From: Planctomycetaceae bacterium
GTDB taxonomy: Bacteria; Planctomycetota; Planctomycetia; Planctomycetales; Planctomycetaceae
Assembly: GCA_002726205.1 (NCBI GenBank)
Contig: PBSL01000068.1
Coordinates: 1 to 64,000 of the forward strand
Length of the DNA: 64,000 bases
Direction: 5' to 3'
Notes under the pieces: generated by a model
Database searches by the model: none
Told to the model about the DNA's origin: nothing
What the model saw: the letters and a program-made list of their open reading frames with translations, nothing else
In this document: piece by piece, positions 60,346-63,463 of the stretch
How positions within the stretch are numbered: position 1 is the first letter of the stretch
Layout of the letters: the number at the start of each line of letters is the position of its first letter
Translations under genes and position numbers: made by a program

Positions 60346-61599
60346 CTAGGGAACCGTCGTCTCCTCGCTGAACCACTTCGGGAACGGCCCGGAGATGACG
60401 GTTCGCTTTCCGTTGCGAACGATCGACAGCTGCACCCGGTCGCCGGGCTGGTACCTGCCGAGTACTCGGCCGAGAAACGTGTCGAACTTGCGGACGCGGA
60501 GGATCGGCTCGGGGATTCCGATGACGACGTCCCGTTTCTTCAATCCCACGCTGCGAGCGAAACCGTCGGAGTAGACACTGGAGATCTTCACGGCGAGCGT
60601 CGTGGTCGACAGGCCCAGGTCCTTGCGTTGCGACGGGGCCAGGCTGTAGCCCCGCATTCCGGTCCGGAACGGGGCACTTCGCAGCGACTTCTTCCAGCCG
60701 ATCCCGCTGACCCACCAACCGGGCTTGGGTGCCAGTGACAGCGTCTGCAGCCGCGGATCGCCTTCTCGATTGGGACGAAGCACGGTCACGCGGATCGCCT
60801 GGCCGTCGGCGGTTCGGTCCAGGGCGTAGCGAATGTCGTACTCGGAATGCACCGGCACTTTGTCGACACGGGTCACCACGTCACCGGCTCGGACACCTGC
60901 TGCCTGGGCCACCGATCCGGGGCGGACCGATTCCACCCGGTGCCCGTGGTCGCGGTGAATCGACAGTCCGAGAGTCTCCGGGAGAGGAAACCGGAACAAA
61001 TCTCTACGGGTGAACCGTCCTTCGTGGAATGATTGCAGCAACTGGTACTCGCGAACCTTGTGGCAGCGAATGCAGCCCCTGTGGTTGGCCCTCAGCAGCG
61101 GGATGTCTCGTGGCGTACGGCGACCGGGCGTGACGGGTTGGTAGATCTTCTCGGGTTTGGCGTGCCTGGCCAGTACCTCGCTCATCGTGTGCAACAGCGA
61201 CGACGTGTTCATCCTCGCATCCGGCTCACCTTCGTCGCGGCCCCCGTAACGGCTGTAGATGTTCAGGGCCGCGTCGGTGAAAAATGCGTTCCAGGTCACG
61301 TCCAGGTCGAAGGCGAAGTGGTTGAGATTGACACCACCGAGATGGGTGATCCTCACACAGACAAACCGGCGACGGACCGCCGCGATCTGCGTGTTGTCAT
61401 GAGCAACCTGCTCATCCCAGACCCAGCACTCCGGTCAGGTCTCGCAGCGGAACACGATGAACATCGGTCGCCCGGTGTCACGCGCCACTCGCTGTGCCTC
61501 GCCGAGGTTGCGGTACCAGCCGTCGCCGGTTGGCTTCGCGACACAAGGCGTGGCCGAGAGCAGCGACAGGACCAGCAGGGTTGACGTGGTGTATCGCAT
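60346..61599 (-). CDS. Predicted selenoprotein: exported thioredoxin-like, CxxCH and PDZ-like protein with in-frame TGA (Sec55)
   Basis: Reading from ATG 61599 to TAG 60346 gives 417 codons with one internal TGA at codon 55 (61437-61435). Residues 1-21 form a signal peptide (TSTLLVLSLLSATPCVA). A thioredoxin-like strand RPMFIVFRCET then U55-P-E-C58 forms a UxxC where thioredoxins have CxxC; Cys52 also makes CxxU. The frame continues WVWDEQVAHDN into RRRFVCVRITHLGG. A CIRCH haem-type motif is at 176-180, and two PDZ-like segments lie about 205-290 and 325-400 (VRPGSVAQAAGVRAGD; SVGLKKRDVV). Both sides of the TGA are protein-like. An ORF caller would start at GTG 61356, losing 81 residues. Alternative: a degraded gene or sequencing error at a Cys codon. 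Confidence 0.72.
61399..61415 (-). promoter_or_regulatory. Candidate bacterial SECIS hairpin after the in-frame TGA
   Basis: On the mRNA strand ATGAGCA-GGT-TGCTCAT is a perfect 7-bp stem with a GGU loop. It begins 19 bases after the UGA; the loop is 26 bases downstream of it. Flanking GUC and GAC can extend the stem across a 4-base bulge. The apical sequence GCAGGUUGC closely resembles GCAGGUCUGC of the E. coli fdhF SECIS, in which the GGU loop contacts SelB. Confidence 0.6.
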
Positions 61600-61717
61600 G
61601 GGATGGGGCCATTGGTGGTGTTGTAGACCGGCCGCTCAGGATAGCCACTGGACTCGTGTCTTGTCATCCCGGGTGCCGTATCCTGTCGTCTCAGCGGTTC
61701 TGCTACACTCGACCCCG

Positions 61718-63463
61718 ATGTCACGCGTCGATCTCCGGTTACTGCTTTTGATCGCATGTTTCCTGCCGGTTCAACTCTCGGCCGGGATCCCGGTGTCGGG
61801 TCTGCGAAGGCCGATCGACATCGTCTTGTCGCCCAGGGGTGACCGTGTCCTGGTGGCGAATCGCCGCAGTGGATCGGTGTCGGTGATCGATCGCCGGGGC
61901 CGCGGTGTCATTTTCGAGTGCCGGGTTGGGCGAACACTCTCGGCGCTGGCCGTCGTTCCCGGGACCGGGATGGTGCTGGCGACCGACGAGTCGGCTCATG
62001 AACTGGTTGGACTGGAGCAGGGTGACGGCGACCGTCGGTTGCTTCGTGTTGCCTGGCGATTGCCGGTGGCCTCGTACCCGGTGGCCGTATCGGTCACGCC
62101 CGACGGTCGCCGGGCGATCGTGGCCTCGCTGTGGTCGCGGCGGCTGACGCTGGTTCGGTTGGCCGGAAGCCAACGGCCCCGACCTGAAGCGGTCCGGGAT
62201 CTGCCGTTTGCCCCGCGGCGGTTGCTGCAGTTGCCGGGGGGACGCTGGCTGGTGGCTGCCGCCTTTGGTGGCCGGGTGGCGGTAGTGGGCCGGCGCCTTG
62301 CCGGGCCGATCGCCGTGCGTTTGCTCGAAGCCCACAACGTGGGGCGGATGGCGATTTCACCCGACCGACGGCACGTGTTGATTCCGCATCAGTTGATGGC
62401 GGCCGAGGAGGCGACGACCGAGGGTGGTGTCCACTGGGGCGGTGTGATGCTCAACGTGGTTCGCACGGTGTCGATCGCCGCGATCGAGGCGGGCACGGCC
62501 GACCTGGGGTCGCGACGCGGTCTCGACTATGTCGGCGTTCCTGATCGCGCGGCCGGCGACCCCGTGGCCCTTTGCCTGGGAGCGAAGGGCCTGAGGGTGC
62601 TGTTGCTGGCGGGGGTTCATGAAGTGGTCACCAGCGAGGACGGGATCGGTTACTTCACGCGGCAGCGGCTTGGACTCGGGCCGACCGCCGTTGTTCTGGA
62701 ACCGGTGGGGGCGCGGGCCTGGGTGGCGAATCGCTTCGACGATTCGGTCTCCCTGGTGCAGTTGTCACCGCTGGCGGTGCTGGCCAAGATCCCCCTCGGG
62801 ATGACCGCCCGGCGAACGGCGGTCGACCGGGGCGAGGAATTGTTTCATGACGCGAGGCTCTCGAGTGATGGGTGGTTCAGTTGTCGGAGTTGTCACACGC
62901 GGGGACACACCAACGGGGGACTGAACGACAATTTCGGCGATGACAGCTACGGTGCGCCCAAGAAAGTGTCCTCGCTGCTGGGAACCCGTGATACCGGGCC
63001 CTGGGCTTGGAATGGTGAGGTGCCGCGGTTGGTCGAACAGGTCAAGAAGTCGGTGAGGCTGACAATGCGCGGCCCCCGGCTCGGATCCCGTCAGGCCAAT
63101 GACCTCGCCGCCTACCTCAAGTCGCTGCCGGCGGCTCCGTCGCTGGCCGAAGCGCGGGGGACGATTGACACGGAAGTCGTCAATCGCGGTCGCGCCGTCT
63201 TTGCCCGTGCCAGATGCGGGTCCTGTCATGCGGCCCCGGCTTACACGTCACCACGAAATTATGATGTCGGGCTGGAAGACGAACTGGGCCGGACCCGTTT
63301 CAATCCCCCGTCCCTGCGTGGTGTCAGCCAGCATCGCCGGCTGTTCCATGACAACCGGGCGGGAAGTCTTGGCGAGGTGCTGGGTCGGTTCCGGCACGGT
63401 CTGGAGTCGCCCTTGTCGGATGGCGATCGGCGTGACCTGCTGCGATTTCTTGAGAGCCTGTGA
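61718..63463 (+). CDS. Beta-propeller/c-type cytochrome fusion protein
   Basis: 581 residues. Signal peptide (about 1-22) then a YncE/NHL-like beta-propeller (about 25-370, RPIDIVLSPRGDRVLVANRR with repeated xVANR strands). The C-terminal part has two haem c motifs CRSCH (389-393) and CGSCH (500-504) and LLGTRDTGPWAWNG, resembling the di-haem MauG/cytochrome-c peroxidase family seen in planctomycetes. It lies divergent to the predicted selenoprotein across 118 bp with no other feature. Substrate unknown. Confidence 0.85.
   Translation: MSRVDLRLLLLIACFLPVQLSAGIPVSGLRRPIDIVLSPRGDRVLVANRRSGSVSVIDRRGRGVIFECRVGRTLSALAVVPGTGMVLATDESAHELVGLEQGDGDRRLLRVAWRLPVASYPVAVSVTPDGRRAIVASLWSRRLTLVRLAGSQRPRPEAVRDLPFAPRRLLQLPGGRWLVAAAFGGRVAVVGRRLAGPIAVRLLEAHNVGRMAISPDRRHVLIPHQLMAAEEATTEGGVHWGGVMLNVVRTVSIAAIEAGTADLGSRRGLDYVGVPDRAAGDPVALCLGAKGLRVLLLAGVHEVVTSEDGIGYFTRQRLGLGPTAVVLEPVGARAWVANRFDDSVSLVQLSPLAVLAKIPLGMTARRTAVDRGEELFHDARLSSDGWFSCRSCHTRGHTNGGLNDNFGDDSYGAPKKVSSLLGTRDTGPWAWNGEVPRLVEQVKKSVRLTMRGPRLGSRQANDLAAYLKSLPAAPSLAEARGTIDTEVVNRGRAVFARARCGSCHAAPAYTSPRNYDVGLEDELGRTRFNPPSLRGVSQHRRLFHDNRAGSLGEVLGRFRHGLESPLSDGDRRDLLRFLESL

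Follow-up and report, generated by a model that had tools for sequence, protein, structure and literature searches.

On the minus strand of the window (the whole 64 kb stretch of DNA that was analysed), a reading frame starts with an ATG at 61599 and remains open to 60346, its sole interruption being one UGA (61437-61435). Read as selenocysteine (Sec), this UGA would be part of a Trx7/PDZ selenoprotein gene, and a short hairpin follows it within the coding region. The features of the locus are:

60346 to 61599, minus strand: full reading frame, with the UGA read as Sec, of a predicted 417 aa Trx7/PDZ selenoprotein (NF041199; from NCBIfam and AlphaFold)
61435 to 61437, minus strand: in-frame UGA, read as selenocysteine (Sec55); 53 homologues have TGA in this column and 35 have TGC/TGT
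61399 to 61415, minus strand: putative bacterial SECIS hairpin, i.e. 5' arm at 61415-61409, GGU loop at 61408-61406 and 3' arm at 61405-61399 (from sequence, folding and comparison)
61342 to 61518, minus strand: Thioredoxin_7 domain (aa 28-86) with C52-x-x-U55-x-x-C58 (PF13899, 41.9 bits, above the cut-off; conserved columns)
61060 to 61074, minus strand: CxxCH motif C176-I-R-C179-H180, a possible c-type haem site (C..CH in 90/90 aligned homologues)
60763 to 60954, minus strand: first PDZ domain (aa 216-279; PF13180, in two stretches)

The predicted protein matches the NCBIfam family NF041199 (trx7_PDZ_seleno) with 340.3 bits against a curated cut-off of 300, and does so over aa 27-402, i.e. 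nearly the full length. As in that family, the CxxU motif lies within a Thioredoxin_7 domain and is followed by PDZ domains, a second PDZ-like domain extending from the first up to about aa 402. In the AlphaFold model (mean pLDDT 92.5), for which Cys was put in place of residue 55, C52 comes after the first strand and residue 55 immediately before the next helix, like in thioredoxin active sites, while the best Foldseek matches of the second half of the protein were the PDZ tandems of DegQ/DegP and RseP. The CxxCH motif sits between the Trx and PDZ domains and is kept whether the Sec column holds Sec, Cys or Ser; by its sequence it corresponds to the motif of c-type cytochromes, and haem may be attached there. 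The N-terminal segment resembles a signal peptide as judged by eye, and the protein is probably exported. The closest named relatives of the gene belong to the Planctomycetaceae. The protein encoded by its divergent neighbour (61457-63463, plus strand) resembles beta-propeller and MauG/cytochrome c peroxidase proteins (PF03150, 53.9 bits); as listed, the ORF of this neighbour overlaps at its start with the Trx7/PDZ gene, and its true start is probably near 61719.

The first-pass annotation had described a perfect 7-bp stem, ATGAGCA/TGCTCAT, with a GGU loop after the UGA, and we found it at 61415-61399 on the minus strand; the stretch it had set beside the Escherichia coli fdhF element, GCAGGUUGC, was also read correctly. 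The spacing of 26 bases that it gave holds for the apical loop, which begins at +27 and is separated from the UGA by 26 nt, and not for the stem, which already begins at +20, i.e. 19 nt past the UGA. According to the published limits for bacterial SECIS elements (PMC13188914), the loop measures 3-9 nt with a G in its first two positions, the stem 4-16 bp and the distance from UGA to loop 16-37 nt, with a minimum free energy of at most -7.5 kcal/mol. The hairpin in the window falls within all of these ranges, with a 3-nt loop (GGU, whose first position is G in 53/53 UGA homologues), 7 bp, a spacing of 26 nt and -8.0 kcal/mol for the 19-nt hairpin segment (-15.3 kcal/mol for the 48-nt region). 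It is the sole perfect 7-bp Watson-Crick hairpin with a GGT loop in the window, both strands having been searched; in first-order Markov shuffles their number per window was 0.17, falling to 0.07 when a TGA was also required at 16-37 nt upstream. In each of the contexts tried, it was also part of the minimum-energy fold, leaving no sign of the more stable alternative fold named in advance as a possible refutation. Mean pair probabilities were 0.91-0.95 and individual ones 0.85-1.00, except for the loop-adjacent A-U pair (about 0.65).

Taken singly, the hairpin is no more than suggestive: compared with shuffled sequences its energy gave z = -1.33, with 22/200 shuffles folding equally well, and 8 % of the window's TGAs are followed by a stem-loop of roughly bSECIS shape (7 bp, GU pairs included, and a loop of 3-8 nt that contains a G), so that geometry alone is weak evidence. 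A search of Rfam gave no family matching the hairpin. The earlier statement that stem, loop and spacing provide what SelB-dependent recoding needs is upheld as far as the SECIS reading goes, while the independence from protein-level evidence that it claimed is not, since it is the comparison of homologues that decides.

Among 90 aligned homologues, the Sec55 column is TGA in 53 and Cys in 35. All 53 UGA homologues retain six to eight of eight pairs at identical spacing, including compensatory changes, whereas 34 of the 35 Cys homologues retain none to four and the remaining one six; the hairpin is thus kept with UGA and lost with Cys, as expected of a bacterial SECIS, and the other refutation named beforehand, an equal presence in Cys homologues, was not borne out. 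With the structure held fixed, 92.5 % of the cells were paired in the UGA sequences versus 23.9 % in the Cys sequences, the latter being the level of shuffles, i.e. chance; in slid versions of the UGA alignment, 24-56 % of the cells pair. Changes on both sides of a pair occurred in 34 cells of the UGA alignment; shuffles gave 7.5, and sliding the partners gave 0-3. RNAalifold predicted a 5-bp core with two covarying pairs for the same alignment, and this conserved core consists of the 5 bp below an AGGUU-type loop, the outer pairs varying by clade.

Such a hairpin could also be a by-product of the protein motif D-E/G-Q-V-V/A-R/H, with no role for the RNA itself, and the encoded D, Q and V are indeed well conserved near the redox motif. 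However, the covariation reaches synonymous sites. Pair 24-38 is a standard one in every distinct row, i.e. in every UGA sequence with Asp at this position the codon is GAC if the sixth codon of the stretch is CGN and GAT if it is CAN. Similarly, pair 26-36, which is free of mismatches, ties the third base of the Val/Ala codon after Gln-Val to the second base of the GGG/GAG codon for Gly/Glu: GGG is found together with GTC/GCC/GCT, and GAG/GAA with GTT/GCT only. Coupling of synonymous sites across codons is expected from RNA pairing and not from protein constraint. In addition, the Asp is retained in the Cys homologues, from which Q-V-x-R/H has mostly gone along with the pairing, and if the same protein stretch is recoded with synonymous codons, all 7 pairs arise with a probability of only 7.8e-4. 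We consider an origin in the protein motif very improbable, and favour a SECIS element.

Evidence in this direction is also given by reversions from Sec to Cys in a tree computed without the Sec and hairpin columns. The Cys homologue L014, 44 % identical to the window protein, is nested in a 19-member clade (support 1.0) of which the other 18 members have UGA, and the Cys homologues L080 and L081 are nested in a seven-member clade (support 1.0) with five UGA members. The hairpin is gone in all three. No SelB was found on searching the genomes of L014 and L080/L081, nor was a tRNA-Sec in that of L014, and the genomes of L080/L081 gave only weaker 53-bit matches to the tRNA-Sec family. In L081 (585-629) and L080 (1542-1586), D-x-x-V-V-R is still encoded while the pairing has decayed, and these stretches look like fossil SECIS elements. 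Among the matches listed, selB was present in 66/72 genomes with a UGA homologue versus 14/45 with Cys homologues only (Fisher P 6.7e-12, a value that ignores kinship). A match to the SelB wing was absent from six UGA genomes: five of them have a completeness of 59-79 %, and the other one, G262 (97 % complete), has a tRNA-Sec.

The genome to which the window belongs (G000; 4.86 Mb, 96 % complete) harbours selB on contig C76 (an open frame of 664 aa whose wing-3 domain scores 62.3 bits), with selA adjoining it (TIGR00474, 510.7 bits), as well as a tRNA-Sec (69.6 bits) with the anticodon TCA according to ARAGORN. Its selD (L110, G000 C13:116990-117913; 347 bits) itself contains an in-frame UGA, followed by the hairpin CCGCAC-AGGUC-GUGCGG (CCGCACAGGTCGTGCGG). 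Another Trx7/PDZ gene with a UGA (L043 3747-4901, i.e. G000 C76:48746-49900) lies about 9 kb from selA/selB. When the same genome was searched with the SECIS model R1, strong matches were confined to the two Trx7/PDZ genes (E 2.6e-10 and 3.2e-10), eight further matches having E above 1.7; R1 missed selD and is therefore specific to the Trx7/PDZ gene family.

These data also bear on two explanations that do without selenocysteine. The UGA might really terminate translation, or reflect a sequencing error or a lesion in a pseudogene, the downstream part then being made by reinitiation; translation table 11 does split the frame, and an internal GTG could open a 336-aa ORF. Against this, TGA recurs at a single alignment position in 53 homologues that belong to several families, with Cys opposite in the rest, the frames to either side of the UGA are conserved and contain no other stop, and the genome encodes a full Sec machinery, which makes an interrupted gene exceedingly unlikely. 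Decoding of the UGA as another amino acid, by Trp/Cys reassignment such as some bacteria show for UGA or by near-cognate readthrough, is just as hard to credit, given that TGA terminates neighbouring genes in the window and in the genome, that other homologues have Cys in the UGA column and that SelA, SelB, SelD and tRNA-Sec are all present.

The hairpin is therefore almost certainly a bacterial SECIS within the coding region of the Trx7/PDZ selenoprotein gene that would direct Sec insertion, a reading behind which stand the sequence, its conservation and covariation, the co-occurrence of the Sec machinery and family membership. SelA would make Sec-tRNA(Sec) from seryl-tRNA using the selenophosphate of SelD, and SelB carrying Sec-tRNA(Sec) would, going by what is established for SelB, bind the hairpin via its conserved GCA-GGU-UGC tip, such that Sec would go in at the UGA in place of termination. 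After the probable export, C52-x-x-U55, located where the first helix of the thioredoxin fold begins, would do thiol/selenol redox chemistry, with haem perhaps carried at CxxCH. Comparative support for a real SECIS comes from the covariation at synonymous sites and from the Cys revertants, which have lost the hairpin together with SelB, and gene callers that treat UGA as a stop would miss the protein's redox site.

The homologues L016, L021, L095, L098 and L097 have two in-frame TGAs, nine bases apart, at the CxxC positions (UxxU). One of the two stands in the Sec column and the other three residues before it, and a single hairpin follows. We tentatively suggest, at somewhat less than even confidence, that the Trx7/PDZ selenoproteins are haem-c redox proteins in which Sec and haem cooperate in the cell envelope, and that these homologues read two UGAs with one shared SECIS. 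The family also lends itself to testing whether one SECIS can serve two UGAs that lie close together.

The hairpin resembles that of E. coli fdhF and the bSECIS consensus in lying in the coding region soon after the UGA, with a G-rich tip (GCAGGU) and a spacing of 26 nt. The fdhF element reads GCAGGUCUGC and has a bulge and a loop of its own, whereas the hairpin in the window combines a 3-nt (or 5-nt, AGGUU) loop with an unbroken stem of 7-8 bp. Within the same genome, the paralogue has GACGGGCAGGTTGTCCGTC at equal spacing in a gene whose protein is 33 % identical, while the selD hairpin has the CAGGUYG tip in common with the window hairpin and differs in that its loop lies about 32 nt from the UGA. 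The protein family is already known: a 2022 review (PMC9312934) has an entry for a PDZ domain-containing protein that combines Thioredoxin_7 with CxxU, and a 2026 review (PMC13188914, Table 1) includes NF041199 Trx7/PDZ among the predicted selenoproteins, with a CxxU motif and a single Sec. The window protein shares both traits with NF041199 and shows no defining difference, and its gene is an additional member of the family with a textbook SECIS. The name NF041199 is silent on the invariant CxxCH, and while the review gives one Sec, a few homologues here have two UGAs (UxxU); such UxxU homologues, in which one hairpin follows both UGAs, and the invariant CxxCH are possibly reported here for the first time.
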